Shown here: one piece after another, positions 4,145 through 41,735 of the stretch
Numbering within the stretch: position 1 is the stretch's first letter
Layout: every line of letters begins with the position of its first letter
Origin: Desulfatitalea alkaliphila
Lineage (GTDB): Bacteria; Desulfobacterota; Desulfobacteria; Desulfobacterales; Desulfosarcinaceae
DNA length: 64,000 nt
Direction of reading: 5' to 3'
Assembly (NCBI RefSeq): GCF_022968795.1
Contig: NZ_JALJRB010000012.1
Location: 1-64,000, forward strand
Notes under the pieces: model-generated
The model's input: the letters and a program-made list of their open reading frames with translations, nothing else
What the model was told of the DNA's origin: nothing
Database searches by the model: none
Translations under genes and position numbers: made by a program

Positions 4145-4145
4145 C

Positions 4146-13313: not shown

Positions 13314-13358
13314 GATCTCTTGTTGCCCGTCACCCGTGGCGCCATGTGCCGGTGCGGA

Positions 13359-13937
13359 CTAATATTGAATCATGGGTACTTGTTTTTTGCGTGGCACGGG
13401 CAATGGTTTGTATTTGCCGCCTTCCGGCGGGATCCGGGTGTCCAGCAGTCGATCGAAATGGAGGTCGATGAGCGCGCTTGCGGGGATGACGGTTTGACCC
13501 AAAAAAAGCTGGCCTGCTTTTTCGTCGTCGATGACGGCCGCAAGCTCCAGGTTGGTTTGCTTGAGGGCCAGGTAGGCGATTTCGGCGATTTCGTTGGAAC
13601 CGTAGAGTACAATGGTGCGCACGCCTTCTTGTTCCAACTGCTTCAAGGTGTTCTCGAGTTTGGATTTGGCCATTCTGTAGAAATCAAGGGAGTGCTGGAT
13701 AAAGTCGCAGGTCAGGCGGGTTTTTTCCAGCAGGCCCTTGGGGGTGAGCAGGTACCCTACCCTGTTCCTGGGATAAGTGCGAATTTTAAAATAGCTTTTT
13801 TGCACCAACTGCTTGATGTAGAGGTTGACCAATCCCAGGGAGACATCCAGTCGTTCTGCCAGTTCCCGCTGGGTGGGCGGATTCTCTTTGTCCATTTCCT
13901 GCAGTAGTGTGAGGGTGCGGATGTCGCGCAGCTTCAT
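13359..13937 (-). CDS. Winged-helix regulator with Rossmann-like C-terminal domain
   Basis: From the ATG at 13937 the protein has 192 residues. Residues ~1-70 form a winged helix of the MarR type (TQRELAERLDVSLGLVNLYI is the helix-turn-helix, then a wing with RTYPRNRVGYLLTPKG). Residues ~110-190 contain a Rossmann-like strand-loop (TIVLYGSNEIAEIAYLAL) and AAVIDDEKAGQLFLGQTVIP, as in sugar O-acyltransferase PglD-like or CoA/nucleotide-binding domains. Such proteins sit at the head of O-antigen loci, so it probably regulates the wzm-wzt operon just downstream. The ligand is unknown. A longer frame extends to 14174 but the added sequence looks non-coding. Confidence 0.78.
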   Translation of the reverse strand: MKLRDIRTLTLLQEMDKENPPTQRELAERLDVSLGLVNLYIKQLVQKSYFKIRTYPRNRVGYLLTPKGLLEKTRLTCDFIQHSLDFYRMAKSKLENTLKQLEQEGVRTIVLYGSNEIAEIAYLALKQTNLELAAVIDDEKAGQLFLGQTVIPASALIDLHFDRLLDTRIPPEGGKYKPLPVPRKKQVPMIQY

Positions 13938-18215: not shown

Positions 18216-20015
18216 TTAATGTGCCGGTTCGGGTACGGGCACGGCCACGGGTGTGATGCGTTCGATCTCATCGCGCAGCTTTTGCAGTTCCTGAAGGAAT
18301 TTTTCCTGTTTCTCCTTGAAGAAGCGGCACGCCAGGTCCTGGTAGTAGTCGGTGCCTTCCAGAAGGCTCTTTTTGAAAGATTCGAAGTAGCTCCAGGGCC
18401 GGTTGGAGATCTGATGGGTGAAACGCTTGATTTCCACGCACAGGTACTCTTTGTTGAGGCGCATCTCTTCCAGGAACATGTGGGAGCGCTCATGGTTGAC
18501 CATGACGCACAGGCGACCGTAGATGTGATTGACCATCTCATCCAGGGAGAAGGTGCGGCGGAAATTGCGGATGTTGGGGCCGCAGCAGACCGCCGGCGCC
18601 ACCGCCTTGTGCCCGTTCCGGCTCAAGCTGACGCTGCCGCCCAGGTCGTGACAGATGCATGCCTTGGCCAGCACCGCTTCACGCACCATGGCCTGCGCCG
18701 CCTCGGAGAGTTCCTCCTCGGGCAAGTGGGACAGCTTGAGGGCCACGTATTCGCGGGAGGCGGTGCAAATGGGTTTATCCGTAAACTCGCTGTTGATGCG
18801 CGCATACCCTTTGGGGCAGTCACTGCCGGGTCGGCCGGTGGCGATCCGGCGCTGCCGCTGCCGTTCGCTGGCCGAGGTGCGCAGATTCCAGAACGGAACC
18901 CCCAGAGGAGACGCGTCGCTGAGGTAGATATCTTCCTTGTTCGCATTGCAGAGCCGCTCCAGGTGAACGGAATCCACATTGGTCACTTCGGGCACCACCA
19001 TGAAGGGGGTGCCCCAACCCGTGCCGTCCACCTGGTAGTATTGCAGAAGCATGTTGTTTTCCTCGGCCGTACCGATGCCGCCCTGGACGGTGACGCGGAT
19101 CGGAGGCGGCTCGGTCGGGGCATGCCGCCCCATGCCCGCCAACGCCTTTGCGTAGATCCGGAAGAGACATTCCGTCAGCTCTTGGCGATTCTGTTTGAAC
19201 AGCTCCAGTACGGGTCCCATCAGGTTGCAGTCGGCCGCGAAGGCGTGCCCGCCGCAGTTGAGGCCCGACTCGATGCGAAACTCGGAGATCCACAAGCCCC
19301 GCTTGGCCAGGAATTTCCCCTGGACCAGCGCCGAGCGGTAGTCACTGACCTTCAGAATGATGCTTTTGACGGGGCCGGCGGTGTCGCAGGGGAAAAAATC
19401 GTCAAAGCAGGCGGCGTAGGTGTAAAGGCGCTGGTTGATGCCGGCGGAGAAGACCATGGCGGATCGCAGCGTGCTTTTGGCGAAGCCGCGCAGGGCGGCC
19501 ATTGCATCAGCGAATTCGGCGGGCAGCTTGGCGCCGTTGCGATAGCGGTCCATGTCCAGCTTGGTCATGATGTTCACATCGATGCGGCCGGGTACGATAT
19601 GACGGCGCAGCTCGGCCTGCAGGCTCTGAAGCTCGCGGGTGTCGGTCACGGTTTGCATTTGCAGGTATGCGTCGCGCAACGGCGAAGGGGGCAACAGCTC
19701 AAAGTAGCGGCAGATGTCACTGCCCGCATCGAAGGGCGCCTGCCGCAGTTGCCGCACCTGGCGAGCCACCAGCTCATCGACCAGGTCCAGGTAGGCCGTG
19801 ATGCGCCGGGCCCTCGCGTCGGGTGCGGAAGCCTTTATGGCAGTGAACGGCAATTGGTGCTGTCGGCTATGATATTTGCGCGCCTGCTCGATGATCACAT
19901 CATCCACCAAAGAGATGACCGAAGTGATGCCGTACCGGGCGACGCGCAACGGCGTGTCCAGCGTGAACCCGGTGCCCATGACCGGGATGTGAAAGGAGTG
20001 GGGGCTGGAAAGCAT
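18216..20015 (-). CDS. Large conserved protein divergent from the PUFA-synthase gene; possible PfaD-like enoyl reductase
   Basis: About 599 residues from ATG 20015 (GAGA upstream). The N-terminus HIPVMGTGFTLDTPLRVA resembles the phosphate-binding first strand of nitronate-monooxygenase/PfaD TIM barrels, and VQGGIGTAEENNMLLQYY near residue 335 resembles their GGIGTP block, followed by YLSDASPLGVPFWNL. A Cys-rich stretch ACICHDLGG...AVCCGPNIRN lies near residue 515 and the C-terminus is helical and charged. Pfa-type systems need an FMN enoyl reductase (PfaD), which the neighbouring megasynthase lacks, and this gene is divergently placed 230 bp away. I infer, without certainty, that it fills that role. 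It could instead be an unrelated conserved protein of the same locus. Confidence 0.7.
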   Translation of the reverse strand: MLSSPHSFHIPVMGTGFTLDTPLRVARYGITSVISLVDDVIIEQARKYHSRQHQLPFTAIKASAPDARARRITAYLDLVDELVARQVRQLRQAPFDAGSDICRYFELLPPSPLRDAYLQMQTVTDTRELQSLQAELRRHIVPGRIDVNIMTKLDMDRYRNGAKLPAEFADAMAALRGFAKSTLRSAMVFSAGINQRLYTYAACFDDFFPCDTAGPVKSIILKVSDYRSALVQGKFLAKRGLWISEFRIESGLNCGGHAFAADCNLMGPVLELFKQNRQELTECLFRIYAKALAGMGRHAPTEPPPIRVTVQGGIGTAEENNMLLQYYQVDGTGWGTPFMVVPEVTNVDSVHLERLCNANKEDIYLSDASPLGVPFWNLRTSASERQRQRRIATGRPGSDCPKGYARINSEFTDKPICTASREYVALKLSHLPEEELSEAAQAMVREAVLAKACICHDLGGSVSLSRNGHKAVAPAVCCGPNIRNFRRTFSLDEMVNHIYGRLCVMVNHERSHMFLEEMRLNKEYLCVEIKRFTHQISNRPWSYFESFKKSLLEGTDYYQDLACRFFKEKQEKFLQELQKLRDEIERITPVAVPVPEPAH

Positions 20016-20248
20016 TTTTCTGTCTCTTAGCCGATGTTCAAAAGAGTTGAGGCGGGTGCGCCGCGTGCAAGGCAGACAAAGGTAAAGCCCACCCACCATA
20101 TCCCGCAATGGCTTTGGTTACAAGGAATAGATGGGCAGGAGTTTATGGTTTCGATACCGATTTAAATCCAAACTCGAGTTGCATTAAAGGTCTAAGTCGG
20201 ATATATGGTCTATTTTTAATCAAATCAATGCAGTAAGTGGGTTTTTGT

Positions 20249-23200
20249 ATGGAAAACAAACCGTTTGTGGCCGTGGTGGGAATGTCCGGGGTTTTTCCGG
20301 GTGCGATGGGTGTCGGGCCGTTTTGGGATAACATTAGCGGTAAAGTGGATGCCGTGGCAGAGGTGCCGGCGGCGCGTTGGGGCACGCTGGTGGATTGGGT
20401 CTACAGCGACAAGCCGGCGCCGGACCGCACCTATTCCCGCCGGGCCTGCCTGGTGAATACATTTGAATGGGACGGCGGCGGTACGGCGCTGGATCCCGCT
20501 TTTTTACAGCGCCTGGAGCCATGGTTCCAGTGGGTGGTTTACGGGGCGCGCGAGGCGCTGGCCGATTGCCGCACGGAAGGCTTGGACCTGGCGCGGGCGG
20601 GGGTGATCCTGGCCGCCATCGCGTTGCCCACCGCTGCATCTTCCCTGCTTTCGCGCCAAATCCTTTCCGAACCGCTGTTTGCCGGCATCGGCCGCGCTGC
20701 CGCAGACGCTGCTGTACCGTCGGCCGAAACCCGGTTCGCCGCCCGGGTGGTCGCGCGACCGGCGGCCCTGGTGGCCCGGGCGCTGGGGCTGGGTGGCGAG
20801 GTGTACACCCTGGATGCGGCCTGCGCTTCCTCCCTTTACGCGGTGCAGTTGGCCTGCACGGCCTTGCAGGCGGGGCGGGCCGACCTGATGATCGCCGGCG
20901 GGGTCTCCGGAGCGGACAATCTTTACACCCAGATCGGCTTCAGCCAGTTGCGCGCCCTCTCCCCTTCGGGCCGCTGCGCGCCCTTCGACAAGACGGCGGA
21001 TGGTCTGGTGGTGGGTGAAGGGGCCGGTGTGGTGGTGCTCAAACGCTTGGACGACGCGGTGCGGGACGGGGATCCCGTTTACGGTGTGATCCGGGGCATC
21101 GGCCTGTCCAACGATATGCGGGGCAATTTGCTGGCGCCGGAATCGGACGGCCAGTTGCGGGCCATGCGGGCGGCCTATGCCGCTGCGGGCTGGCGGCCCT
21201 GGGATGTGGATTACATCGAATGCCACGGGGCCGGCACACCGGTGGGCGACGCCACGGAGCTGCGCAGCCTGCGCGCCTTGTGGGCCGATGCCCCGGCCGC
21301 GGCGGGTCCCTGCGCCCTGGGAGCGGTCAAGTCGATGATCGGCCACCTGCTTACCGGCGCCGGGGCGGCGGGCATGATCAAGGTCCTGCTGGGATTGCAC
21401 CACCGCACCCTGCCACCTTCTCTGAAGTTTACGGCGCCGGCGGCGGACAGTCCGCTGCGCGACGGACCCTTCCGGGTGCAGACCGAGCCGGTGCCCTGGC
21501 CGGAACGGGATGACCGGCCGCCGCGGGCGGCGGTGAGCGCTTTCGGTTTCGGGGGCATCAACGCCCATCTGTTGCTGGAGGGCTGGCCCGCGGTGGCGGC
21601 GGACAAGCAGTCTGCGGCGGTGGCCGTGCAGCCGGTCCCGCCGGATGAATCGCCCCGGATGGCCGTCGACGATGAAACCACAGCCGTGGCCATCGTGGGC
21701 ATGGATCTGCACCTGGGCCGTTTGGATGGCCTGACCGCTTTTGAACAGGCGGTGTTCGGCGGCCGCACGGCCATGATCCCGCCGCCCGAAGGCCGTTGGA
21801 AGGCGTCTGAAGCCGTTGACCGCCGGCTGGGCAAACCGTTGGCCGCTGCGGGCTTTGTGCAGGAGGTGGCGGTGAAAATGGGCGCCTTCCGCATACCGCC
21901 CGGGGAAATTCCCGACATCCTGCCCCAGCAGTTGCTGATGCTGCAGACGGCGGCCGGCGCCTTGCAGGATGCGGGCTTGCCCCTGCACCAGCACCGGGAA
22001 TCCATGGGCGCGGTGATCGGCATCGCCTTCGACCAGGAAGCGGGGAATTTTCATTTGCGCTGGGTGCTGCCGGAGCTTCTGCAGCGGTTGCAGGACGGTG
22101 AAGGCGGCACGGAAAACGGCGCAGGCATCATCGGTCGACATGACGATCCGGCCCATGCCGACTGGTGGGCGGCCGCCCGGGAAGGGTGCGGGCCGCCCTT
22201 GACCGCCACGCGGACCTTGGGCGCCCTGGGCGGCATCGTGGCCAGCCGCATCGCCCGGGAGTTTCGTTTCGGCGCGCCCTCCTTCGTGGTGTCGGCCGAA
22301 GCGGCATCGGGATTGCGGGCGGTGGCCATCGCCGCCGATATGCTCCGTTCGGGCCGCGCGGACGCCATGTTGGTGGGGGCGGTGGATCTGACCTGTGACG
22401 AACGGAACCTGGCCACGCTTTACGATCGCACCACCCTGAGCACGACGGGGCGGGTGCGACCCTTCGACGCGGCGGCGGACGGTGGGTTGCCCGGCGAGGG
22501 CGCTGTGGCCCTGGTGCTCAAACGGTTGTCCGATGCCAGGGCGGACGGCGACCGCATCTATGCGTTAATCCGGGGCGTGGACGGTGCCCACGGCGGCAAT
22601 GGCGATGCCACCCATCCCACCGTGTCCACCTACGCCCGTTCCCTCCAGGCGGCCCATCGGGCGGCGCAGGTGCCGGTCGAAGCCGTCGGGCTGGTGGAAA
22701 CCCACGGCAGCGGGATTCCGGCCGAGGATGCCATCGAGGCCGAAGCCCTGCAACAAATGTTCAAATCCGGCGACCGTCCGCCGGAGCGGCGGGTGGCGGT
22801 CGGGGCGCTCAAACCCCTGACGGGCCACACCGGTGTGGCCGCCGGGTTGGCCTCCCTGGCCAAGGCGGCCCTGTCCCTGCACCACCGCCTGCTGCCGCCC
22901 CTGCCCCACTTTTTCGGACCCCGCCACGAGGGGTGGTCCGCCGATCATTTCCATTTTCCCCGTTCGGCCGCATACTGGGCCGCCGACCGCGACGACGGGC
23001 CGCGCACCGCCTGTGTGGGCGCCATGACGGCGGACGGCGGCTGCATGCACGCCATTTTGCAGCAGGCCGACGATGGGCAACCGGCGCGGACCCAAGCTAT
23101 CCCGCCGGCGTCAGCACCCAGCCGTCCCATGGGCCCCCTGCCCTACGGGCTCTTCCTGCTCCACGGCGCGGAGACCGATGATCTGGCGGCCCGCCTGGAT

Positions 23201-26200
23201 CAACTGGAAGCCATGGTGAACAAGGATACCGCCGTCCCCGCAGACAGCGCGATGGAGCGGCTTGCCCACCAGTGGTTCAGGCGCGATCCCGAACCGCACC
23301 GAGGCGGTCGTCATATGGCCCTCCTGGCACACAGCCCCCAAGAGCTGCGACAGCACATCGCCACGGCACGTCGCCTTCTGCAAAACAATGAAGAACGCTT
23401 GATGGGCGGCCGGGGCGGCGTGTGCTACCTACCCCGCTTCCAGGCGCAAGGCGACGGGGCCGGCGAAGTGGCTTTCGTCTTTCCGGGGTCGGGCAACCAC
23501 TATGTGGGCATGGGGCGTCACCTGGGGACCCACTGGCCTGAAGTGTTGCGACAGATGGAGCATCGCACGGAGCAGCTGCGTTCCCAGATGCTGCCCCACC
23601 TCTTTGACCCCTGGCGCATCGAATGGGGACCGGGGTGGCAGTCCGAGGCCTACGAAGCCCTGGTGGCCGATCCGTTACACACCATTTTCGGCCAGGTGGT
23701 GTTCGGCGGTCAGATGGCCCGCCTGCTGCGCCGGTTCAACCTGCGGCCCGATGCGGTCATCGGCTACAGCCTGGGCGAGTCGGCCGGCCTCTTCGCCCTG
23801 GACGCCTGGCCGGACCACGGCCGCATGCTGGCCCGCCTGGCGGATTCCGACCTGTTCCGCACCCAGCTGTGCGGCCCCTGCGAAGCGCTGCGCCGGGCCT
23901 GGCGACTGCCGGCCGAACGGCCGATCCAATGGCGGGTGGCGGTGGTCAATCGCCCCGCCGCGCAAGTGGACGCCGCCCTGGCCCATACGCCCCATGTGCG
24001 ACGCTTGATCGTCAACACACCCGGAGAATGCGTCATCGGCGGTCTGGAAGAGGAAGTTGCCGCCGTGGTGGCGCGGCTCAAATGTGAAGCCCTTTACCTG
24101 GACGGCGTGGTCACGGTGCACTGCGACGCGGCGCAACCGGTTGCCGAGGCCTACGCGGCGCTGCACCGCTTCCCGACCACGCCGGTGGCAGGGGTGCGGT
24201 TCTACAGCGGCGCGGCCGGGGCCGCCTACCCGGTCTCGGAGGAAGCGTGCGCCGCATCCATCCTGCGCCAGGCGCTGGAAGGCTTCGATTTTCCGCAAAC
24301 CATCCGCCAGGCCTACGCGGACGGCGTACGGCTGTTCGTGGAGGTGGGTCCTCAAGGCTCCTGCACCCGCATGATCCGCCAAATTCTGGAGGACAAACCC
24401 CACCTGGCGGTGGCGGCCAATGCACGGGGCGAGGACGAGTGCCTGCCTCTGCTCAAATGCCTGGGCACCCTGGCCGCCGCGGGACAGCCGGTGGACCTGG
24501 CGCCGCTCTTTGGTTACGCGGAAACCTTCTTCGGTCGGCCTGGTCCGTCGGGCGGACAGGTGATCCGGGTGCCGGTGGGCGGACAAGCCCCCGTGCTGCC
24601 GCCCCTGCCTTCGGCGGCCCGAGAATCAACGACGGCGGCCGATGCAGCCGCTGAACCGGCGAGGACCGCAACTGCCGGGGCTGATGCCGTGTCCGCATCC
24701 GGGCCGCAGGCCGAGCGACCCGCGCCACCACGGCAAACGCCCGAACCACACCCGCAATCCGTGCCGGAATATCCCCATCGTGAAGGGCCGCCGCCCACCC
24801 CGCCCTACGGCCGCGCGGACGACCCCGACGTTGCGCAGGATGCCGAAGCCCGGGCGCTGCAGGCCATGATCGACGAACTCAGCGACAATGCGGCCGCCAC
24901 GGCGCGGGCCCACGAGCAGTTTCTGGACCTGACCCGGGACATGACCCGCCAGATGAGTGAAGCGTTCCAGATGCAACACCAGTTGCTGGAGATGATGGCC
25001 GACATGGGATTGGGCCCCCAACCGCCGCGGTTGGACCCCGGGGGGCCACCGCCGCCTGCCGACCTGCCCGATCCCTATGTCACCGCGTCGCAGACGGCTG
25101 CGGCACCTTCGCCCGGCACGCCGGCCGGCCCGGCAGTTGCGCCGCAGGCGCCCGCCTTCACCCGCGAACAGTGCATGGCCTTCGCCGTGGGCGCGGTGGG
25201 AGAGGTGCTGGGCCCCGATTTCGCCGTCATCGACACTTACAAAGCCCGTGTGCGGCTGCCGGACGAACCGCTGATGCTGGTGGACCGCATCCTGCGGGTG
25301 GAAGGCGAAAAACGCAGCCTGGGCAGCGGCCGGGTGGTCACCGAGCACGATGTGCGCCCCGGCGCCTGGTACCTGGACGGCGACCGCGCGCCGGTGTGCA
25401 TCTCGGTGGAGGCGGGCCAGGCGGACCTGTTCCTGTGCAGCTACCTGGGCATCGATCACCAGGTCAAAGGCGAACGCACCTACCGCCTGCTGGACGCCAC
25501 CATCCGCTTTCATCGCGGCCTGCCCCGGCCGGGGGAAACCATCCGCTACGACATCCAGATCGACAAATTCGTGCGCCAGGGGGAAACCTATCTATTCTTC
25601 TTCCGTTACGAGGGACGCATCGGGGATCGCCCGTTGATCACCATGACCGACGGTTGTGCCGGGTTCTTCACCGAGCAAGAGGTGATCCAATCGGGCGGCA
25701 TCCTGCTCTCCGCCGAGGATCGCGCGCCCGGGGCCCGGGTCGACGGCGCGCCGTTCACCCCCCTGGTGCCCCTGGCCGACACCACCTGCGACGATGATCA
25801 GGTGGAGGCCTTGCGCCGGGGCGATGCCGGCGCCTGCTTCGGTCCGGCTTTTGCCGGCGTCCGTCTGCCGCACGCCCTGCGCCTGCCCGGCGGGCGCATG
25901 CGCCTGATCCATCGCATCGTACAACTGCAACCCGGCGGCGGACGGTTCGGCAAGGGCTATGTCAAGGCCGAAGCCGACATCCACCCCGACGACTGGTTTC
26001 TCACCTGCCACTTCGTGGACGACCAGGTGATGCCCGGCACCTTGATGTACGAATGTTGCGCCCATGCCCTGCGGGTGCTGCTGCTGCGCCTGGGCTGGGT
26101 CACCGACCGCGCGGACACGGCCTACGAGCCGGTGCCCGGCCTGCCATGCCGCCTCAAGTGCCGCGGCCCGGTGACGCCCCGCACGCGCAAGGTGCACTAC

Positions 26201-27580
26201 GCGGTGGAAATCAAGGAGATCGGCTACCGCCCCGAGCCCTACGTGGTGGCCGATGCCCACATGTACGCCGACGACCGCTACATCGTTTTCTTCAAGGACA
26301 TGTCCATGCAGCTCACCGGCCTGGACGAGCCAACCATCGCCGACTTCTGGCATCGCCTGCACGGCGCTGCCGTGGACACGGGGCGATCCGCCGCCGTGCC
26401 GTCTTCGGAACGCCCGGCGGATGCGGCGCCGGTATCGACAACGCCCCTGTTCGGCCATGACCGGATCCTGGCCTTCGCCGTGGGCAACCCTTCCGAAGCC
26501 TTCGGCGAACCGTACCGGGTGTTCGACCGGCAGCGCACCATCGCCCGCCTGCCCGGTCCGCCCTACTGCTTCCTGGACCGCATCAGCGCCATCGAACCGC
26601 CGCCCTGGGAACTCAAGGCCGACGGTTGGGTGGAGGCCGCCTACGACGTGCCGGCCGACGCCTGGTACTTCGCCGCCGACCGCAGCGGCGTGATGCCCTT
26701 TGCCGTCTTGCTGGAGATCGCCCTGCAGCCCTGCGGCTGGCTGGCGGCCTATGCCGGCTCGGCCCTGCGCAGCGAAAAGGATCTCAAGTTCCGCAACCTG
26801 GGCGGCCAGGCCACGCTGCACCACAACATCCCGCCGGCCGACCGCACCCTGATCATGCGCACCCGCATAACCAAGGTGTCCGAAGCGGCCGACATGATCA
26901 TCGAACATTTCGATTTCCAGGTGCTCTCCGATGATCGCCGGCCCATTTACACCGGCAGCACCTACTTCGGCTTTTTCACCGCCCGGGCACTGCAAGATCA
27001 GAAGGGCATGCGCACCGCCGTTTATGAACCAGCGGCGCCGCCGGCGGCCGATGCCGTCGTCGATCACCCCCTGCCCGTCGCCCCGCCCCGGAATCCGGAC
27101 CAGGTGCCCGAGGCCACCGTCTTTTCCGCCGACGGCCTGCAAATGCCGGCCAAGGCCCTGGCCATGATCGACGTCATCGACCGGCTCGACCCTGCCGGTG
27201 GCCCCCAAGGCCTGGGCTATGTGCGCGGTCACAAGCGGGTCGATCCCGATGAGTGGTTTTTCAAGGCCCACTTTTACCAGGATCCGGTCTGCCCCGGCTC
27301 CCTGGGTATCGAATCCTTCATCCAATTGTTGAAGTTTTATGCGATACACCGTTGGCCCGACAAAATATCCAGCCACCGGTTCGAAATGGTCACCAGGCAG
27401 CCGCACCAGTGGGAATACCGCGGCCAGGTGATCCCCACCAACCGCAAGGTGACCGTGGAGGCCATGATCACCGGGGTCGACGACGGGGATGCCCCCTCCT
27501 TGACCGCCGACGGTTGGCTGCATGTGGACGGCTTGTGCATTTACAAGATGACGGGATTCCGACTGAGGTTGCAACGATGA
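20249..27580 (+). CDS. PUFA-synthase-like megasynthase, KS-CLF-AT-DH-DH
   Basis: 2443 residues from ATG 20249 (a GTG at 20237 would add four). KS at ~6-450: AACASS Cys192, His326 in CHGAGTPVGD and His366 in SMIGHLL, all intact. A second KS-like unit at ~478-940 has Ala685 in place of Cys (VSAEAASG), so it is a chain-length-factor type. An acyltransferase at ~1074-1420 has GYSLGES with Ser1174. A Pro/Ala linker with a helical patch follows (~1450-1660). Four hot-dog units come next: 1666-1806, 1876-2025 (CHFVDDQVMPG, His1921), 2099-2246 and 2296-2443 (AHFYQDPVCPG, His2341). Units one and three lack the His, so they form two FabA/PfaC-type dehydratase didomains. I see no ACP (no DSL/DSI phosphopantetheine motif) and no KR. 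The arrangement equals thraustochytrid OrfB plus OrfC without enoyl reductase. It overlaps oleA as ATGA. Confidence 0.9.
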   Translation: MENKPFVAVVGMSGVFPGAMGVGPFWDNISGKVDAVAEVPAARWGTLVDWVYSDKPAPDRTYSRRACLVNTFEWDGGGTALDPAFLQRLEPWFQWVVYGAREALADCRTEGLDLARAGVILAAIALPTAASSLLSRQILSEPLFAGIGRAAADAAVPSAETRFAARVVARPAALVARALGLGGEVYTLDAACASSLYAVQLACTALQAGRADLMIAGGVSGADNLYTQIGFSQLRALSPSGRCAPFDKTADGLVVGEGAGVVVLKRLDDAVRDGDPVYGVIRGIGLSNDMRGNLLAPESDGQLRAMRAAYAAAGWRPWDVDYIECHGAGTPVGDATELRSLRALWADAPAAAGPCALGAVKSMIGHLLTGAGAAGMIKVLLGLHHRTLPPSLKFTAPAADSPLRDGPFRVQTEPVPWPERDDRPPRAAVSAFGFGGINAHLLLEGWPAVAADKQSAAVAVQPVPPDESPRMAVDDETTAVAIVGMDLHLGRLDGLTAFEQAVFGGRTAMIPPPEGRWKASEAVDRRLGKPLAAAGFVQEVAVKMGAFRIPPGEIPDILPQQLLMLQTAAGALQDAGLPLHQHRESMGAVIGIAFDQEAGNFHLRWVLPELLQRLQDGEGGTENGAGIIGRHDDPAHADWWAAAREGCGPPLTATRTLGALGGIVASRIAREFRFGAPSFVVSAEAASGLRAVAIAADMLRSGRADAMLVGAVDLTCDERNLATLYDRTTLSTTGRVRPFDAAADGGLPGEGAVALVLKRLSDARADGDRIYALIRGVDGAHGGNGDATHPTVSTYARSLQAAHRAAQVPVEAVGLVETHGSGIPAEDAIEAEALQQMFKSGDRPPERRVAVGALKPLTGHTGVAAGLASLAKAALSLHHRLLPPLPHFFGPRHEGWSADHFHFPRSAAYWAADRDDGPRTACVGAMTADGGCMHAILQQADDGQPARTQAIPPASAPSRPMGPLPYGLFLLHGAETDDLAARLDQLEAMVNKDTAVPADSAMERLAHQWFRRDPEPHRGGRHMALLAHSPQELRQHIATARRLLQNNEERLMGGRGGVCYLPRFQAQGDGAGEVAFVFPGSGNHYVGMGRHLGTHWPEVLRQMEHRTEQLRSQMLPHLFDPWRIEWGPGWQSEAYEALVADPLHTIFGQVVFGGQMARLLRRFNLRPDAVIGYSLGESAGLFALDAWPDHGRMLARLADSDLFRTQLCGPCEALRRAWRLPAERPIQWRVAVVNRPAAQVDAALAHTPHVRRLIVNTPGECVIGGLEEEVAAVVARLKCEALYLDGVVTVHCDAAQPVAEAYAALHRFPTTPVAGVRFYSGAAGAAYPVSEEACAASILRQALEGFDFPQTIRQAYADGVRLFVEVGPQGSCTRMIRQILEDKPHLAVAANARGEDECLPLLKCLGTLAAAGQPVDLAPLFGYAETFFGRPGPSGGQVIRVPVGGQAPVLPPLPSAARESTTAADAAAEPARTATAGADAVSASGPQAERPAPPRQTPEPHPQSVPEYPHREGPPPTPPYGRADDPDVAQDAEARALQAMIDELSDNAAATARAHEQFLDLTRDMTRQMSEAFQMQHQLLEMMADMGLGPQPPRLDPGGPPPPADLPDPYVTASQTAAAPSPGTPAGPAVAPQAPAFTREQCMAFAVGAVGEVLGPDFAVIDTYKARVRLPDEPLMLVDRILRVEGEKRSLGSGRVVTEHDVRPGAWYLDGDRAPVCISVEAGQADLFLCSYLGIDHQVKGERTYRLLDATIRFHRGLPRPGETIRYDIQIDKFVRQGETYLFFFRYEGRIGDRPLITMTDGCAGFFTEQEVIQSGGILLSAEDRAPGARVDGAPFTPLVPLADTTCDDDQVEALRRGDAGACFGPAFAGVRLPHALRLPGGRMRLIHRIVQLQPGGGRFGKGYVKAEADIHPDDWFLTCHFVDDQVMPGTLMYECCAHALRVLLLRLGWVTDRADTAYEPVPGLPCRLKCRGPVTPRTRKVHYAVEIKEIGYRPEPYVVADAHMYADDRYIVFFKDMSMQLTGLDEPTIADFWHRLHGAAVDTGRSAAVPSSERPADAAPVSTTPLFGHDRILAFAVGNPSEAFGEPYRVFDRQRTIARLPGPPYCFLDRISAIEPPPWELKADGWVEAAYDVPADAWYFAADRSGVMPFAVLLEIALQPCGWLAAYAGSALRSEKDLKFRNLGGQATLHHNIPPADRTLIMRTRITKVSEAADMIIEHFDFQVLSDDRRPIYTGSTYFGFFTARALQDQKGMRTAVYEPAAPPAADAVVDHPLPVAPPRNPDQVPEATVFSADGLQMPAKALAMIDVIDRLDPAGGPQGLGYVRGHKRVDPDEWFFKAHFYQDPVCPGSLGIESFIQLLKFYAIHRWPDKISSHRFEMVTRQPHQWEYRGQVIPTNRKVTVEAMITGVDDGDAPSLTADGWLHVDGLCIYKMTGFRLRLQR

Positions 27581-28617
27581 TCTACAACGATGTCACCATT
27601 GCCGGCTTGGGCTACGAACTGCCCCCCAACGTGATCACGTCGGACGATCTGGAGCAGCGCCTGGCGCCGGTATACGAAAAACTGCGCATCCAACCCGGCC
27701 AACTGGAAGCCTTGACCGGCATCGCCGAGCGGCGGTTCTGGGACCCGGGCTTTCGCCTCTCCCACGGCGCGGTGGCGGCGGGACGCAAGGCCCTGGCGGC
27801 GGCCCGGATCGCACCCCATGAGATCGGGCTGCTGATCTATGGCGGGGTGTGCCGCGAAAACCTGGAGCCGGCCACGGCCTGCGCGGTGGCCGACGGCCTG
27901 GGCATCGGTCCCCGGGCCCAAATATACGATGTGTCCAACGCCTGCCTGGGGGTGCTCAACGGCATGGTGCAGGTGGCCAATGCCATCGCCCTGGGGCAGA
28001 TCAAGGCCGGGCTGGTGGTTTCCTGCGAATCGGCCCGCGCCATCGTGGAAGCCACCGTGCAGCGGCTGCTGGACAATCCCAGCATGGCGGTCTTCAGCGA
28101 GGCCCTGGCCACCCTCACCGGCGGATCGGGCGCCGTGGCGGTGGTGCTGTGCCACGCCTCCCTGGCTGCCGACGGCCACCGTCTGCTGGGCGGGGTGGCG
28201 CGCAACGCCACGCAACACCACCGGCTGTGCACCTGGGGTCCGGACGCCGGCTTTTCCTGTGGCGGCGACCACATGATGCGCACCGATGCGGTGGGGGTGC
28301 TCAAGCACGGGGTGGCCCTGGGCATCGAAACCTTCGAGGCTTTCCGCCGCGAGCTCTCCCTGAGCGCCGATCAGCCGGACAAGGTGGTGTGCCACCAGGT
28401 GGGATCGGCCCATCAGAAAACCATTTTGAACGCCTTCGGCATCGATCCGGCCCGCGATTTCGTCACCTACCGCTATCTGGGCAATATCGGCACCGTTTCC
28501 CTGCCCATCACGGCGGCCATCGCCGCCGAGCGGCAATTTTTGCAGCCAGGGGATCTGGTGGGCCTGCTGGGCATCGGCAGCGGGTTGAATTGCCTGATGC
28601 TGGCGGTGCAGTGGTGA
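27577..28617 (+). CDS. oleA: OleA, acyl-CoA head-to-head condensing thiolase
   Basis: 346-residue thiolase-fold enzyme that condenses two fatty acyl thioesters by non-decarboxylative Claisen condensation to a beta-keto acid. The nucleophile is Cys123 in SNACLGVLNG, with His273 (VCHQVGSAHQK) and Asn303 (YLGNIGTVSLP) completing the triad. Glu97 in NLEPATA matches the OleA-specific glutamate that abstracts the alpha proton and is absent from FabH, which separates it from a FabH annotation. The start ATG overlaps the megasynthase stop as ATGA, and the stop overlaps the oleB GTG. It is thus co-translated with the PUFA-type synthase, which implies that its acyl donors come from that enzyme. Confidence 0.93.
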   Translation: MIYNDVTIAGLGYELPPNVITSDDLEQRLAPVYEKLRIQPGQLEALTGIAERRFWDPGFRLSHGAVAAGRKALAAARIAPHEIGLLIYGGVCRENLEPATACAVADGLGIGPRAQIYDVSNACLGVLNGMVQVANAIALGQIKAGLVVSCESARAIVEATVQRLLDNPSMAVFSEALATLTGGSGAVAVVLCHASLAADGHRLLGGVARNATQHHRLCTWGPDAGFSCGGDHMMRTDAVGVLKHGVALGIETFEAFRRELSLSADQPDKVVCHQVGSAHQKTILNAFGIDPARDFVTYRYLGNIGTVSLPITAAIAAERQFLQPGDLVGLLGIGSGLNCLMLAVQW

Positions 28618-29552
28618 CGGCCATGGATCAATCCATCGACATGCGGCCCTTCGCCCATCTGTACCCCTTTCGTTCCCATTACCTGCCGCTGCGCGGGGGG
28701 CTGCGCTACCACTACCTGGACGAAGGCGCGGGCAGCCCCATGGTGATGGTGCACGGCAACCCCACCTGGTCCTTCTTCTTTCGCCGCCTGGTGACGGCCT
28801 TTCGCGACGAGTTCCGGGTGATCGTGCCCGACCACATGGGGTGCGGATTGTCGGACAAGCCGGATGCCAAGCGCTACGGCTTCCGCCTGACGGACCGGGT
28901 GGCCGACCTGACGGCCCTGCTGGACCATCTGGCGCCCCAAGGCCCCGTCACCCTGGTGGTGCACGACTGGGGCGGCATGATCGGACTGGCCTGGGCCCTG
29001 GACCACCTGGACCAGGTGGAACGTCTGGTGATCATGAACACCGCCGGTTTCTTTCCACCCGGCCGCAAAGCCATTCCCCAACGGCTGCGCCTGCTGCGCA
29101 CCCCCAATCCACTGATGGACCGCCTGGTGCTGCACGCCAACCTGTTCGCCAGGGCCGCCCTGTACATGGCCCCTCGCCGACGCCTGGCCCCCGATGTCAA
29201 GGCGGGACTGATCGCACCCTACAACTGCCCCCGCCACCGGTTGGCAACTTTGAAATTCGTGCAGGACATTCCCCTAGGCCCAAGAGATCCCAGCGGCGCC
29301 ATCGTGCAGCGGGTTTCCGACAATCTGGCGCGCATCGGCGACCGCCCCGTGCAACTGATCTGGGGCGCCCACGATTTCGTGTTCGATCGGTCCTATTACG
29401 AAGAGTGGCGGCGGCGGTTGCCGCTGGCGGAGGCGCATTGGATTTTTGAGGCGGGACATTATTTGATGGAGGATGTGCCGGAGGTTGTTGTTGGGATGAT
29501 GCGGAATTTTGTTAGTGAAAATAGAGTTTTAAGTTTAAAGTTTAAAGTTTAA
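28614..29552 (+). CDS. oleB: OleB, beta-lactone decarboxylase (alpha/beta hydrolase)
   Basis: Alpha/beta-hydrolase close to haloalkane dehalogenases. The oxyanion-region motif is VHGNPTWSFFFRRL, the nucleophile elbow VVHDWGGMIGLAW carries Asp118 rather than Ser, and the terminal EAGHYLMEDVPE holds the catalytic His. OleB uses this Asp to open the beta-lactone made by OleC and release CO2 and a cis-olefin. I start at GTG 28614, which overlaps the oleA TGA; ATG 28623 is an alternative, giving 309 residues. It is a free-standing OleB, not the OleBC fusion found in some bacteria. A repeat-rich gap separates it from oleC. Confidence 0.9.
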   Translation: MTAMDQSIDMRPFAHLYPFRSHYLPLRGGLRYHYLDEGAGSPMVMVHGNPTWSFFFRRLVTAFRDEFRVIVPDHMGCGLSDKPDAKRYGFRLTDRVADLTALLDHLAPQGPVTLVVHDWGGMIGLAWALDHLDQVERLVIMNTAGFFPPGRKAIPQRLRLLRTPNPLMDRLVLHANLFARAALYMAPRRRLAPDVKAGLIAPYNCPRHRLATLKFVQDIPLGPRDPSGAIVQRVSDNLARIGDRPVQLIWGAHDFVFDRSYYEEWRRRLPLAEAHWIFEAGHYLMEDVPEVVVGMMRNFVSENRVLSLKFKV

Positions 29553-29735
29553 AGCAAGGAATGCTGTCGATTGTAAGGGGGGTGTGGGTGGACGAGGTGA
29601 TGTGTGTTTCCAAGGGGTTGTGATAATCGGTATCGAAATCGGTAATGTCGATGGCCTTCTGCTGCGCTACACGATCGAGTACCCCCGTAGGGGCACGGCA
29701 TGCCGTGCCCCTACGGGTTGGTTGCGTGATCACAA
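29525..29735 (+). repeat. Composite intergenic repeat between oleB and oleC
   Basis: Starts with an AT-rich TTTAAAG array followed by GGAATGCTGTCGATTG. It continues with a block that recurs inverted at about 50970-51245, and ends in a perfect 34-bp GC-rich palindrome (29684-29717, centre between 29700 and 29701). The block at 29642-29666 also occurs exactly inside flgK (53485-53509). No gene is present. Confidence 0.75.
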
Positions 29736-29825
29736 TCCTTTCCACTTGATTCCTGCAAGCGATTGCCCTGGGAGTTTGGCTTCGTGTCTTGTATCGGGTG
29801 GCTTGGGGGTGGTATTAGGGCGGGC

Positions 29826-31523
29826 ATGCATACTTATTTTGAAATTGAACCTGATGTGACGACGCCGGTGGCCGAGACGACGGTCAATGTGGCGTTACGC
29901 CTCAAGGAGATGGCCCGGCGGCAGCCTTACCGTCGGGCCGTTGTGTTTCCGGCGGCCCGGGATGCCAATGGGCGGGTGGCATACAGCCATCTCACCTTCC
30001 GGCAATTGGACCGGGAGTCGGACTGTTTCGCGCGGGGTTTGGCCTCGGTGGGGATCGGGCGCGGCACGCGGACGATTTTGATGGTGCGGCCCAGCCTGGA
30101 ACTGTTCGCCCTGACCTATGCCATGCTCAAGGTGGGGGCGGTGTTCGTCATGGTGGATCCGGGCATGGGGGTGCGCCGCATGCTGGCCTGTTTGCGCGAG
30201 AGCCGCGCCCAGGCCATGATCGGGGTGTCGGCGGCCCACGCCCTGCGCACCCTTGCGCCGCGCTATTTCAAAGGGGTCAAGACAGCCGTCACCATTGGCC
30301 GCCGCTGGTTCTGGCGCGGTCCGACCCTCAAGGAGATCCGTCCCCTGCCCTGGCAGCCGTTTCCCGTGGCCGACACCGACCCCGACGAGATGGCCGCCAT
30401 TCTCTTCACCACCGGCAGCACGGGCGCGGCCAAGGGGGCCGTTTACACCCACGGCACCTTCGATGCCCAGGTGCGGCTGATCCGGGACCGGTTCGACATT
30501 ACGCCCGACGACATCGATCTGCCCACCTTTCCGTTGTTCAGCCTGTTCGACGCCGCCCTGGGCATGACCGCGGTCATCCCCGACATGGACCCCACACGGC
30601 CCGCCGACGTGGATCCGCGCAAAGTGGTCGAGGCGGTGGTCAACCAGGGAGTCACCAACATGTTCGCCTCGCCGGCCCTGCTCAACACGGTGGGGCGCTT
30701 CGGAGAGGAGAACGGCATCAAGCTGCCGTCCCTCAAGCGGGTTATCAGCGCCGGCGCCCCGGCGGCGCCGGCCAACATCGCCCGCTTCGCCGGCATGCTG
30801 GACGAAGGCGCGGAAATCCACACCGGTTACGGCGCCACAGAGGCCATGCCGGTCTCTTCCTTCGGCAGCAAGGAGATCCTTGGCGAGACCGCGGCCCGCA
30901 CGGCCCAGGGCTTCGGCATCTGCGTGGGTCGCCCGATCCAGGAGCTGGACGTGCGCATCATCCGCATCAGCGACGAACCGATCCAGGAGTGGTCCGACGA
31001 CCTGGAGGTGGCCGAGGACGGCGAGATCGGTGAAATCGTGGTGCGCGGCGCCATCGTCACCCGGCGCTATTTTCAACGGCCGCGGCAGGACGCCCTGTCC
31101 AAGATCCGGCAAGGAGAGGACATCTGGCATCGCATGGGGGATCTGGGATGGATGGACCGCAAGGGGCGCATCTGGTTCTGCGGCCGCAAGAGCCACCGGG
31201 TGATCACCCCCCACGGCACCCTCTTCACCATCCCCTGCGAAGCGATTTTCAACAACCACCCGGCGGTCTTTCGCAGCGCCCTGGTGGGCCTGGGCCAACC
31301 GCCCCGGCAACGGCCAGTGATCTGCATCGAGCTCGAGCCGGATCACCGCAAGGATGATCCGGAAAAATTGCACCGCGAGCTGATGGCCCTCGGCGCCGGG
31401 CATGTGCTCACCGAGAAGATCGAAACATTGCTGTTCCACCCCGCCTTCCCCGTGGATATTCGCCACAATTCGAAAATATTTCGGGAGAAGTTGGCGGAAT
31501 GGGCTGAGAGGAAGGTTGGTTAA
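29826..31523 (+). CDS. oleC: OleC, beta-lactone synthetase (AMP-dependent)
   Basis: 565 residues from ATG 29826 (AGGGCGGG upstream). ANL-superfamily adenylating enzyme with the P-loop FTTGSTGAAKGAVYTHG, the GYGATEAMP motif, and the hinge region MGDLGWMDRKGRIWFCGR. In the Ole pathway OleC adenylates the beta-hydroxy acid and closes it to a cis-beta-lactone rather than forming a CoA ester. Evidence that this is OleC and not an acyl-CoA ligase is its exact placement between oleB and oleD and OleC-like features such as the long C-terminal domain with DIRHNSKIFREKL. It is separated from oleB by the composite repeat, so it may have its own promoter. Confidence 0.9.
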   Translation: MHTYFEIEPDVTTPVAETTVNVALRLKEMARRQPYRRAVVFPAARDANGRVAYSHLTFRQLDRESDCFARGLASVGIGRGTRTILMVRPSLELFALTYAMLKVGAVFVMVDPGMGVRRMLACLRESRAQAMIGVSAAHALRTLAPRYFKGVKTAVTIGRRWFWRGPTLKEIRPLPWQPFPVADTDPDEMAAILFTTGSTGAAKGAVYTHGTFDAQVRLIRDRFDITPDDIDLPTFPLFSLFDAALGMTAVIPDMDPTRPADVDPRKVVEAVVNQGVTNMFASPALLNTVGRFGEENGIKLPSLKRVISAGAPAAPANIARFAGMLDEGAEIHTGYGATEAMPVSSFGSKEILGETAARTAQGFGICVGRPIQELDVRIIRISDEPIQEWSDDLEVAEDGEIGEIVVRGAIVTRRYFQRPRQDALSKIRQGEDIWHRMGDLGWMDRKGRIWFCGRKSHRVITPHGTLFTIPCEAIFNNHPAVFRSALVGLGQPPRQRPVICIELEPDHRKDDPEKLHRELMALGAGHVLTEKIETLLFHPAFPVDIRHNSKIFREKLAEWAERKVG

Positions 31524-31571
31524 AATTATTGGGGCCCTTGCGGGCAGTGTTAAGTTTTGGCCCTGGCGGGC

Positions 31572-31738
31572 AGTTTTAAGTTTTAAGTGTTAAGTTTTAA
31601 GTTAATGTATTCTATCGATTTTATTTTTTTTTAAGGGATTAAGAGGAGATTGGGTTGAGCGGTTGATTGGGTCCAAATCGGGATCGGGATCGGGATCGTC
31701 TTTGATTTTATCAATTTTTTCGATTTCGATTTCGATGG
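31572..31738 (+). repeat. AT-rich and hexamer repeats upstream of oleD
   Basis: A TTTTAAG/TGTTAAG array (31572-31620) ends in TTCTATCGATT, matching the family seen at 29525, 38904, 50883, 51199 and 53604. Hexamer runs of GGGATC (31677-31702) and GATTTC (about 31720-31738) follow. This is the whole gap before oleD; no gene is seen. Confidence 0.7.
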
Positions 31739-31786
31739 GTGGAGAAGGTGTTGTGGGGTTTGGTGTGATTTGGTTGGGTTGATTGG

Positions 31787-32887
31787 ATGGAGCGGGTGAT
31801 GGGTATGAGTGGTGGTGGTGGTGGGGATGGTCGGCGGGTTTTGTTGGTTACGGGGGGTGGCGGGTTTTTGGGGGGCGCCATCGTTCGGTTGTTGGTGTCG
31901 CGTGGGGAGCGGGTGCGCAGTTTTTCGCGGGGATTGTATCCGGAGCTGGAAGCGCTGGGCGTGGAGCAGGTTCAGGGGGATCTGGCCGACGGCGTGGCGG
32001 TGCGGCAGGCTTGCAATGGGGTGGCGGCGGTTTTCCATGTGGCGGCCAAGGCGGGGGTCTGGGGCCCCTACGAGGACTATCACCGGGCCAACGTGGTGGG
32101 CACCGAGAATGTGATCGCCGCCTGCCGGGCGTGCGAAGTGGGACGATTGATATACACCAGCTCGCCCAGCGTGGTGTTCGATGGCCGGGACATGGCGGGC
32201 GTGGACGAATCGGCACCCTACCCCAAACGGTTTGCAACCCATTACCAAAGCACCAAGGCGCGGGCCGAGCAGGCGGTGGTTGCGGCGGCGCGCGCGGGAC
32301 TGCCGGCCGTGGCCCTGCGGCCCCATCTGATATGGGGGCCGGGGGACAATCATCTGGTGCCCCGCATTCTGGCCCGCGCCAAGCGGCTGCGGCAGATCGG
32401 GAACGGCAGCAACAAGGTGGACACCATCTATATCGACAATGCGGCCTACGCCCACGTGCTGGCGGAGGAGCGTCTGCGGGAGAACCCCGAACTGTCCGGC
32501 CGCATCTATTTCATCAGCCAGGACGCGCCCATCGCCTTGTGGGAGATGGTCAACCGCATCATCATGGCAGGTGGCGGGCCGCCGGTGGAAAAGCGGGTCT
32601 CGCCCTTCGTCGCCCGGACGGTGGCCGGGCTGCTGGAGGCGGCCTACAAGATGCTGGGCATCGGTTCGGAGCCGCCCATGACCCGCTTCGTGGTCAACGA
32701 AATGGCCACCGCCCACTGGTTCGACATCCAAGCGGCCAAGCGGGATTTGGGCTATGTGCCCATGGTGGACACCGAGGAGGGGTTGCGGCGTCTGGCGGCC
32801 CACCTGCAACCCAAGGGCAGCACAGGCAGCGTCCACGGCGGGCAGCAACAAGGCGACCCACGACCGGCGGCGGTCGGCGCAAAATAG
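31787..32887 (+). CDS. oleD: OleD, NADPH-dependent beta-keto acid reductase
   Basis: 366-residue extended short-chain dehydrogenase. The nucleotide site is VLLVTGGGGFLGGAIV, the active site is YTSSPSVVFDG with YQSTK as YxxxK, and the substrate side includes RPHLIWGPGD. OleD reduces the 2-alkyl-3-keto acid from OleA to the beta-hydroxy acid used by OleC. With oleA, oleB and oleC it completes the four-enzyme olefin pathway. ATG 31787 is used; ATG 31799 is also possible because the Gly-rich lead (SGGGGGDGRR) is variable. The C-terminal ~30 residues after HLQPKGS look unstructured. Confidence 0.9.
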   Translation: MERVMGMSGGGGGDGRRVLLVTGGGGFLGGAIVRLLVSRGERVRSFSRGLYPELEALGVEQVQGDLADGVAVRQACNGVAAVFHVAAKAGVWGPYEDYHRANVVGTENVIAACRACEVGRLIYTSSPSVVFDGRDMAGVDESAPYPKRFATHYQSTKARAEQAVVAAARAGLPAVALRPHLIWGPGDNHLVPRILARAKRLRQIGNGSNKVDTIYIDNAAYAHVLAEERLRENPELSGRIYFISQDAPIALWEMVNRIIMAGGGPPVEKRVSPFVARTVAGLLEAAYKMLGIGSEPPMTRFVVNEMATAHWFDIQAAKRDLGYVPMVDTEEGLRRLAAHLQPKGSTGSVHGGQQQGDPRPAAVGAK

Positions 32888-41662: not shown

Positions 41663-41711
41663 GAGTCGTCGCAAGGGTGCGGTATACGGTGCCTGTAGGG
41701 CTTCGGTGCAA

Positions 41712-41731
41712 GGGCACGGCATGCCGTGCCC
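41712..41731. repeat. GC-rich palindrome copy
   Basis: Perfect 20-bp palindrome with the GGGCACGGCA half-site shared with the palindromes at 29684 and 51060. It lies 5 bp beyond the stop of the minus-strand acyl-CoA synthetase gene and may serve as its terminator hairpin. Confidence 0.7.
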
Positions 41732-41735
41732 CTAC

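Follow-up and report, generated by a model that had tools for sequence, protein, structure and literature searches.

pfaBC-oleABCD of Desulfatitalea alkaliphila as the probable half of a two-locus secondary-lipid synthase

Introduction

What is made by a megasynthase whose stop codon runs into a complete set of olefin genes? The question is posed by a window of 64,000 nucleotides (the whole stretch of DNA analysed, positions 1 to 64,000 of contig NZ_JALJRB010000012.1) from the sulfate reducer Desulfatitalea alkaliphila, in which a PfaBC fusion is followed by oleA, oleB, oleC and oleD (Table 1). We consider it probable that pfaBC-oleABCD is half of a two-locus, Type I-like synthase of a secondary lipid, yielding a C31 polyene hydrocarbon. 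The pairing itself is real but, because it has already been described in related bacteria, is a good example and no discovery; pfa-ole linkage was published by Shulse and Allen in 2011 (PMC3098273) and by Yoshida in 2016 (PMC4882568). The original prediction was unsure whether the linkage had been described, a doubt answered by the 2011 paper and, in the case of a strictly anaerobic member of the phylum, by the available part of PMC4882568; its view that pfa and ole lie at separate loci is not general, since the two have been known as linked since PMC3098273 and are adjacent in Photobacterium profundum according to the available part of PMC6463001.

Table 1. Features of the two loci; positions are those of the window unless contig C20 is named, and residues are those of PfaBC.
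Feature	Location	Strand	Remarks
Conserved protein, no family	18216..20018	-	divergent from pfaBC
PfaBC fusion	20249..27580	+	2,443 aa; Pfam, NCBIfam, PDB matches
PfaBC KS	residues 7-456		
PfaBC CLF (second KS-like unit)	reaching residue ~880 or further		
PfaBC AT	residues 1159-1385		
PfaBC FabA-like stretches (n=4)	best: residues 2300-2434		
oleA, thiolase-fold condensing enzyme	27577..28617	+	346 aa; PRK09258
oleB, beta-lactone decarboxylase, haloalkane-dehalogenase fold	28614 (GTG) or 28623 (ATG)..29552	+	profiles, 8ckp alignment
oleC, olefin beta-lactone synthetase (AMP-binding enzyme)	29826..31523	+	Pfam, NCBIfam
oleD, 2-alkyl-3-oxoalkanoate reductase (SDR)	~31787..32887 (start approximate)	+	Pfam, NCBIfam
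PfaD enoyl reductase	C20:43106-44752		TIGR02814 610 bits, above cut-off
PfaA homologue (KS, MAT, tandem ACPs, KR)	C20:45651-52448		2,265 aa; three PP-binding domains

The pfaBC-oleABCD locus

The megasynthase open reading frame spans 20237-27580, with ATG 20249 as its likely start. Pfam profiles reveal two KS stretches, an AT and four FabA stretches, i.e. KS-CLF-AT-(FabA)4, so that the fused pfaBC (KS, CLF, AT, DH), a feature of Type I Pfa-like synthases, is present. Matches to the NCBIfam PfaA and PfaB models are partial and under cut-off (516/1010 and 93/144 bits), and the top PDB match of the KS-CLF region is 6riw, 'ORF10' (E 2.3e-117); in the alignment to this structure the KS retains Cys/His/His and the CLF is without the Cys. 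Both catalytic FabA halves carry a His and, 14 residues later, an acidic residue in 18/18 aligned rows. No ACP, KR or ER match was found within PfaBC by the Pfam and NCBIfam profile searches, and the protein would therefore require PfaA and PfaD from another locus. In this respect the original prediction was incomplete: PfaD and PfaA lie on another contig.

The cluster had also been taken to start at 18216, a position that falls in a minus-strand gene showing no link to it. The product of this gene matches no Pfam or NCBIfam family at E<=0.01 (weakly PF04778 only, E 0.19), and the gene is present in 10 of 198 genomes of the phylum, the source genome included. It was rejected as a cluster member, there being no tblastn match in the relatives' loci examined or in the best 80 named loci listed.

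All four genes of the OleABCD olefin pathway are present, with open reading frames. As predicted, the megasynthase stop overlaps oleA, the TGA at 27578-27580 sharing four bases (ATGA, 27577-27580) with the oleA ATG at 27577. The predicted overlap of oleA and oleB stands if oleB begins at GTG 28614 (GTGA, shared with the oleA stop) and falls if it begins at ATG 28623, which leaves a gap of 5 bp. oleC and oleD do follow downstream on the same strand, but gaps of 273 bp (oleB to oleC) and 263 bp (oleC to oleD) leave them uncoupled, and the spacing thus points to translational coupling at the pfaBC-oleA junction and possibly at oleA-oleB. The start of oleC at 29826 is backed by an alignment to locus L123 that begins at residue 1.

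OleA scores 482.7 bits against a cut-off of 285 for PRK09258, and aligns over its full length to 3fk5, with 3row next, both of which we take to be structures of Xanthomonas OleA. Cys, Glu, His and Asn are retained in this alignment, of which the last three are presumably catalytic residues. The Cys is given as catalytic in the available part of PMC6463001. The best matches of OleB are haloalkane-dehalogenase models, below cut-off (146.5/241 bits), and alignment to 8ckp shows that the Asp of HDWGG and the His of GHY are retained. OleC is above the PRK09274 cut-off (736/478 bits) and under those of the olefin beta-lactone synthetase models (627/900 and 582/850 bits), while OleD best matches the OleD models NF042422 and NF042423, again below cut-off (409/580 and 402/580 bits); these OleC and OleD equivalog models may be narrow, as their names point to Xanthomonas and Shewanella.

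A second locus carrying pfaD and pfaA

The pfaD-pfaA and pfaBC-ole loci occupy different contigs (C20 and C4) and are both mid-contig, with ~20 kb of other genes before pfaBC and 11.6 kb beyond the end of pfaA, so the single cluster of Type I is not what is found. Two PPTase-family genes lie on contigs C12 and C35. Among the 19 places matched in the genome there is no other KS-AT protein of such size, and PfaA is alone among ten ACP matches in having tandem ACPs; we infer that the two loci are partners. The same split is seen in a relative assembled as one contig of 4.46 Mb (G161), where the loci are 1.1 Mb apart, and we found no published description of a two-locus split of this synthase in the Desulfobacterales clade. 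Repeats of TTAAGTTTTAAGTGTTAAG precede oleD and a similar stretch stands directly before pfaA; their candidacy as an operator common to both loci was rejected on 169 genome-wide matches (<=1 mismatch), with 0 for the reversed control.

Recurrence of the PfaBC-OleA linkage

OleA lies <=500 bp downstream of PfaBC in 62 of 76 evaluable loci, and not in the other 14, among the best 80 named loci of the matches listed, which were ranked by the PfaBC DH region and are no unbiased census. Four of the 80 with <1.5 kb downstream were left out of the 76; tblastn omitted some second segments (e.g. G098), and L151 was counted via separate fragments. The PfaBC-OleA gaps, extrapolated like the OleA starts from alignments, are <=20 bp in 36 and negative in 17 (61 linked of 75 evaluable, best 80 listed). 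OleB, C and D are also present in 40 of the 45 linked loci of this list with at least 6.5 kb downstream; in two planctomycete loci (L142 and L148) OleA follows PfaBC, but OleB, C and D have no match within ~10 kb. Where both sides could be read (49 of the best 80 listed), PfaBC adjoins OleA only in 13 loci, PfaA only in 7, both in 27 and neither in 2. Record titles of PfaBC-OleA loci among the matches listed name Planctomycetota, Elusimicrobia, Verrucomicrobiota, Acidobacteria, and Beta- and Gammaproteobacteria. Nine loci from genomes outside the window's order, picked for adjacent PfaBC and OleA, all have pfaD and pfaA collinear upstream, and oleB, C and D follow in eight, the exception being G098.

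Natural variants were also seen, namely split, AT-less, OleA-less and OleBCD-less forms; the Desulfosarcina widdelii cluster (L147) is one in which no oleA is seen.

A draw of 395 genomes of the phylum gave a similar picture: PfaBC is present in 17 of 18 genomes with an OleA of at least 57% identity, and OleA lies within ~350 bp of it in 15 of these 17, whereas only 9 of 26 genomes with an OleA of <=46% identity hold PfaBC, in none of the nine on the same contig. One genome (G079, 85% complete) has an OleA of 57%, yet no PfaBC <=3 kb upstream or at any other place matched in the genome search.

Trees were quick ones, made without bootstrap. The OleA tree places 76 linked OleAs on one side of a branch (support 100) and 22 unlinked ones opposite, which fits a dedicated line; its labels (76 linked, 6 far, 22 unlinked) require six changes, the 22 being drawn from the 26 distant OleAs (five of them from genomes with PfaBC on another contig), and 16 of 79 named loci, having no OleA or too short a one, are missing from it. 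In the PfaBC tree (LG+G4; 39 rows less than half filled) the window groups with Desulfobacterales rows, away from Geobacter-like rows, and PfaA-less rows fall mostly in one clade. The idea that adjacency of pfaBC and oleA is more durable than that of pfaA and pfaBC, which would have hinted at direct hand-off, was not supported, with 12 label changes for OleA (92 rows) against 6 for PfaA (64 rows); states of relatives outside the named loci were assigned by hand, the PfaA state of G105 was left undecided though its pfaBC begins on the pfaA contig, and G351, with pfaA and pfaBC near each other on opposite strands, was scored PfaA-less.

Proposed route and product

PfaD, PfaA and PfaBC would together assemble, on the ACPs of PfaA and with no need of oxygen, a polyunsaturated chain that is probably 16:4. 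OleA, whose gene comes straight after pfaBC on the message, would accept the chain and join two head to head; OleD would reduce its product, OleC would form the beta-lactone ring, and OleB would expel CO2 to leave a C31 polyene, e.g. hentriacontanonaene. OleA does take polyunsaturated chains from a Pfa synthase, the 31:8 ketone having been demonstrated in E. coli (PMC6463001, available part). A C31 polyene is accordingly a likely product here, and a hydrocarbon appears likelier than a ketone, since both the Asp and the His characteristic of the fold family are retained in OleB. The originally predicted dedicated line from synthase to OleA is a probable one, supported by the linkage in 62/76 loci (best 80 listed), the OleA tree and the retained catalytic residues; the prediction left out PfaA and PfaD, which are encoded elsewhere. 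We found no published lipid chemistry for D. alkaliphila or a close relative.

Alternative readings

It is unlikely, in our view, that PfaBC, PfaA and PfaD make PUFA for phospholipids, with oleABCD downstream for co-transcription and often silent or acting mainly on ordinary FAS II chains. Such a reading can draw on Shewanella, where a single Pfa synthase supplies both EPA and hydrocarbon, and on P. profundum SS9, where pfa and ole operons are adjacent and EPA is made but polyunsaturated hydrocarbon is undetectable (both in the available part of PMC6463001), so that adjacency is no guarantee of product; the OleA of Xanthomonas, moreover, condenses ordinary fatty chains (PMC7064751, available part). 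It is opposed by the co-occurrence of near OleAs with PfaBC in 17/18 genomes of the phylum draw, by the clustering of linked OleAs in the tree, and by the statement that C31:9 is produced without long-chain PUFA in certain bacteria, among them strict anaerobes (PMC4882568, available part). Distinctly unlikely is the proposal that the Desulfobacterales PfaBC is a finishing module that is produced along with the Ole enzymes and docks OleA directly, in a synthase wholly committed to hydrocarbon and making no PUFA, with PfaA-PfaD made apart.

We think it very improbable that OleB or OleC is inactive and the end product a ketone or beta-lactone: OleB, C and D do fall under strict NCBIfam cut-offs, and the planctomycete loci L142 and L148 suggest that a ketone variant may exist elsewhere, but here each of the four ole genes has an open reading frame, OleB still has its Asp and His, and the full set is kept in 40/45 linked loci (best 80 listed). 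That the split is an assembly or binning error hiding a true order pfaD-pfaA-pfaBC-ole is scarcely credible, even in a draft genome of 98 contigs with 3.02% contamination, given the flanking genes on C4 and C20, the genome's own 7-bp repeat on both contigs, the single-contig relative, and the absence of PfaA <=3 kb upstream of PfaBC in 15/49 evaluable loci (best 80 listed).

With a two-locus hydrocarbon synthase as the preferred reading, the pfaBC-oleABCD unit is exemplified in a sulfate reducer, and the variants seen are useful for probing how OleA gets its substrate. The spread of the unit across phyla fits the suggestion, in the available part of PMC4882568, that hydrocarbon supply is a primary role of pfa genes.

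Comparison with known systems

Type I Pfa-like synthases (Geobacter, Pelobacter, Desulfuromonas and Gemmata) have a pfaBC fusion, are often linked to ole, and have been proposed to supply olefin synthesis (PMC3098273). D. alkaliphila shares the fusion, the PfaA and PfaD homologues and the ole linkage, but differs in having pfaD-pfaA and pfaBC-oleABCD at two separate loci. Type K, from Desulfococcus oleovorans, is reportedly of similar configuration (PMC3098273) and may be nearer to the D. alkaliphila cluster. The strict anaerobe Geobacter bemidjiensis has tandem pfaD-A-B-C-oleA-B-C-D-pfaE and produces a C31:9 hydrocarbon (available part of PMC4882568, which cites Sukovich 2010); it is an obligate anaerobe of the same phylum with the same genes, pfaC then oleA-B-C-D, in a single cluster that includes pfaE, whereas here the PPTase-family genes lie apart.

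The pfaABCDE and oleABCD of Shewanella and Photobacterium differ in that pfaB and pfaC are separate genes and EPA is also made, although P. profundum SS9 shares the adjacency of pfa and ole. Xanthomonas likewise has OleA, B, C and D for olefin formation, and OleA aligns to 3fk5, 3row and related structures throughout, but ordinary chains are used and the ole neighbours described in the available part of PMC7064751 are two small-domain genes and no megasynthase, whereas in D. alkaliphila PfaBC adjoins oleA.

Identity and layout of the cluster

The KS-CLF pair of the megasynthase upstream of oleABCD matches PDB 6riw (chain name ORF10; E 2.3e-117), which we take to be the PfaC didomain of Moritella. 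The first KS retains a Cys, His, His set and the second has lost the Cys, which we read as a KS motif and a chain length factor trait, respectively, while two of the four FabA-like units carry a His with an acidic residue 14 positions on, presumably the FabA motif, kept in 18/18 rows. These features make the megasynthase a PfaBC fusion. A Pfam search of its 2,443 residues detected neither a carrier protein nor a ketoreductase or enoyl reductase, so PfaBC should not build a chain alone. In alignment OleA retains the Cys, Glu, His and Asn of 3fk5, and OleB keeps its Asp and His. All five genes have homologues, so the cluster is not a chance reading.

As the original prediction had it, the pfaBC stop overlaps the oleA start (ATGA), and oleC and oleD follow on the same strand; the oleA–oleB overlap that it also described holds if oleB starts at the GTG and is lost with the ATG. 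The gaps before oleC and oleD contain simple repeats. Its cluster start, 18216, has to be moved, as it falls in a divergent gene. The product of that gene occurs in 10/198 phylum genomes, its own included (44-60% identity in the other nine), and a PDB search gave it no match better than E 0.07.

Coordinates of the cluster, its neighbours and related genes elsewhere in the genome (C12, C20 and C35, other contigs)
Feature	Position	Strand	Remarks
Polysaccharide export/modification genes	2413-13158	-	FkbM methyltransferase, large glycosyltransferase, Wzt-like ABC ATPase, permease
Conserved protein, 600 residues	18216-20018	divergent from pfaBC	no sign of cluster membership
pfaBC	20249-27580	+	2,443 residues; two KS units, acyltransferase, four FabA-like stretches (Pfam)
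oleB	start GTG 28614 or ATG 28623	+	GTG overlaps oleA stop; ATG just past it
oleC	29826-31523	+	273 bp gap upstream
oleD	31787-32887	+	263 bp gap upstream
Helicase	32912-35827	-	RNase H-like, MrfA Zn-binding and HRQ1 winged-helix domains
pfaD	C20:43106-44752		adjoins pfaA
pfaA	C20:45651-52448		KS-AT-ACPx3-KR-DH
PPTase-family genes (two)	C12 and C35		

Arrays built from a 7-bp unit (TTAAGTT/TTAAGTG and similar forms) lie at 29525-29554, 31572-31603, 50883-50913, 51216-51244 and 53618-53649; a 19-base form has 169 genome-wide matches with at most one mismatch, against 0 for the reversed control. The palindrome GTAGGGGCACGGCATGCCGTGCCCCTAC, between oleB and oleC (29687-29714), has near copies in the window at 41708-41735 and 51056-51083 and looks like a dispersed palindromic repeat.

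The cluster's nearest named relative among the matches listed is that of Desulfatitalea sp. BRH_c12 (61% identity for PfaBC over residues 1-2441, 74% for OleA and 76% for OleC); upstream of its pfaBC, the ORFs resemble, by eye, an ABC exporter similar to the one at 2413-13158 in the window.

A second locus in the same genome

The source assembly is a 5.07 Mb draft in 98 contigs (99.68% complete, 3.02% contamination), in which the window makes up the opening 64 kb of a 121,490 bp contig, C4. The host is most likely a sulfate reducer, since a profile search finds dsrA at 625.8 bits against a cut-off of 392.85. The genome carries pfaD and pfaA together on C20, and as both this locus and pfaBC-ole lie well inside their contigs, the split is not caused by a contig end. 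The 19 places in the genome that match the PfaA model include no second KS-AT protein of PfaA size, and the seven carrier-protein matches other than PfaA's are all in short frames.

Beside pfaA lies a convergent, minus-strand gene for a Cys-rich protein (C20:52452-53117), with matches in G072, G232, G351 and L130 (three phylum genomes and a further locus); no Pfam family was found for the G232 homologue. Between pfaD and pfaA, a minus-strand 184-residue reading (about C20:44752-45300), MerR-like by eye, has matches in G351 and in the Desulfosarcina widdelii locus. On C12, a 917-residue frame (190825-194073) with KAS III C-terminal and ketoreductase-like matches is possibly a fused enzyme.

Recurrence of the linkage

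Among 395 Desulfobacterota genomes, OleA was found in 44 (E<=1e-40) and the PfaBC DH region in 31 (E<=1e-25). An OleA at least 57% identical to that of the window occurs in 18 genomes, its own included, and PfaBC in 17 of these; the genome search of the remaining one, G079, found none. The neighbourhood search that had been proposed as a check bears out the association: in 15/17 genomes the KS-CLF-AT-DH protein adjoins oleA, within about 350 bp upstream, the exceptions being G072 and G370. More distant OleAs (<=46% identity) occur in 26 genomes, nine of which have PfaBC, never on the same contig (0/9). PfaD and the PfaA region were each found in 31 of the 32 genomes asked.

Nine adjacent loci were read from genomes outside the window's order; trees place these nine with Geobacter/Desulfuromonadales rows. 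All nine have pfaD and pfaA collinear upstream, and oleB-C-D follow in eight; the ninth, in G098, has restriction-modification-like ORFs by eye. Within the window's order, G232 has the full set of seven on a single contig, where ~2.6 kb occupied by other genes separates pfaA from pfaBC, G161 has two loci 1.1 Mb apart on one contig, those of G254 and G295 are split, and G105 is interrupted by a contig end. One genus of this order (G072, G370 and G351) has PfaBC away from ole and without the AT segment, with no match to the query between residues ~945 and ~1520 (L114, L116 and L117-L118, respectively); G351 gave no OleA match at E<=1e-40.

In named genomes, scanned at one per species, the best 80 PfaBC loci among the matches listed include 76 with at least 1.5 kb readable, and 62 of these have OleA within 500 bp downstream. 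In a count with 61/75 linked, 36 loci had an extrapolated gap of <=20 bp and 17 a negative one; OleB, C and D are also present in 40 of the 45 linked loci that extend 6.5 kb or more downstream. Record titles, some of them doubtful for MAGs, span Desulfobacterota, Planctomycetota, Elusimicrobia, Verrucomicrobiota, Acidobacteria, and Beta- and Gammaproteobacteria. In Desulfosarcina widdelii (L147:12394-22364), oleB, oleC and oleD come immediately after pfaBC and pfaD lies 3.6 kb further on, while a search of the 22 kb locus gave no OleA match. In two planctomycete loci (L142 and L148, downstream of 12386-13556), OleA lies directly 3' of PfaBC and nothing matches OleB, C or D over about 10 kb, possibly a ketone-only variant.

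In an OleA tree of 104 rows, a branch with SH-aLRT support of 100 separates 76 linked and six detached-but-close OleAs from 22 unlinked phylum OleAs; five of the six detached have PfaBC at another place in the locus or genome, and for the sixth, G079, none was found. This fits one old pfaBC-ole unit, widely spread and later detached in places, while a single origin is not proven by the tree, as its linked rows were picked via PfaBC or nearness to the window and its unlinked rows come from this phylum only. Stricter conservation of the pfaBC-oleA junction than of pfaA-pfaBC would point to a physical hand-off. Raw counts lean that way, as among the 49 named loci readable on both sides only OleA is adjacent in 13, only PfaA in seven, both in 27 and neither in two. 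The PfaBC tree goes against it, with 12 changes for the OleA junction versus six for the PfaA junction, over different row numbers, and we make no such claim.

Proposed route and comparison with known systems

In the route we propose from the gene families, PfaA, PfaBC and PfaD would elongate an acyl chain attached to the carrier domains of PfaA and dehydrate it, so that several double bonds remain with no need for oxygen. Two such chains would then be joined by OleA, after which OleD would reduce the product, OleC make a beta-lactone and OleB remove CO2 from it. Translational coupling across the pfaBC-oleA overlap fits the dedicated synthase-to-OleA line that the original prediction drew from it, and is not proof of channelling. 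Our best guess at the product is a C31 polyene, because PMC6463001 reports a 31:8 ketone from Shewanella pfa and oleA in E. coli lacking fadD, and PMC4882568 reports C31:9 from Geobacter bemidjiensis with its tandem set. Against this, Photobacterium profundum SS9, with adjacent operons, had no detectable polyunsaturated hydrocarbon (PMC6463001).

Linkage of pfa and ole is already in print, from Shulse and Allen 2011 (PMC3098273) onwards, while searches of open-licence papers gave no account of the two-locus form in Desulfobacterales. That oleABCD can cluster with pfa is stated in PMC6463001, with P. profundum as the adjacent case, and PMC4882568 raises the possibility that pfa genes primarily yield hydrocarbons. 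Another sulfate reducer, Desulfotalea psychrophila, makes C31:8 and C31:9, and a reviewer in PMC2649909, which reports this, describes it as lacking the polyketide PUFA route, so there may be a further route to C31 polyenes. In the obligate anaerobe G. bemidjiensis, as described in Yoshida 2016 (PMC4882568), pfaD, A, B and C, oleA, B, C and D, and pfaE stand in tandem, whereas the genome studied here divides the set between pfaD-pfaA on C20 and pfaBC-oleABCD on C4.
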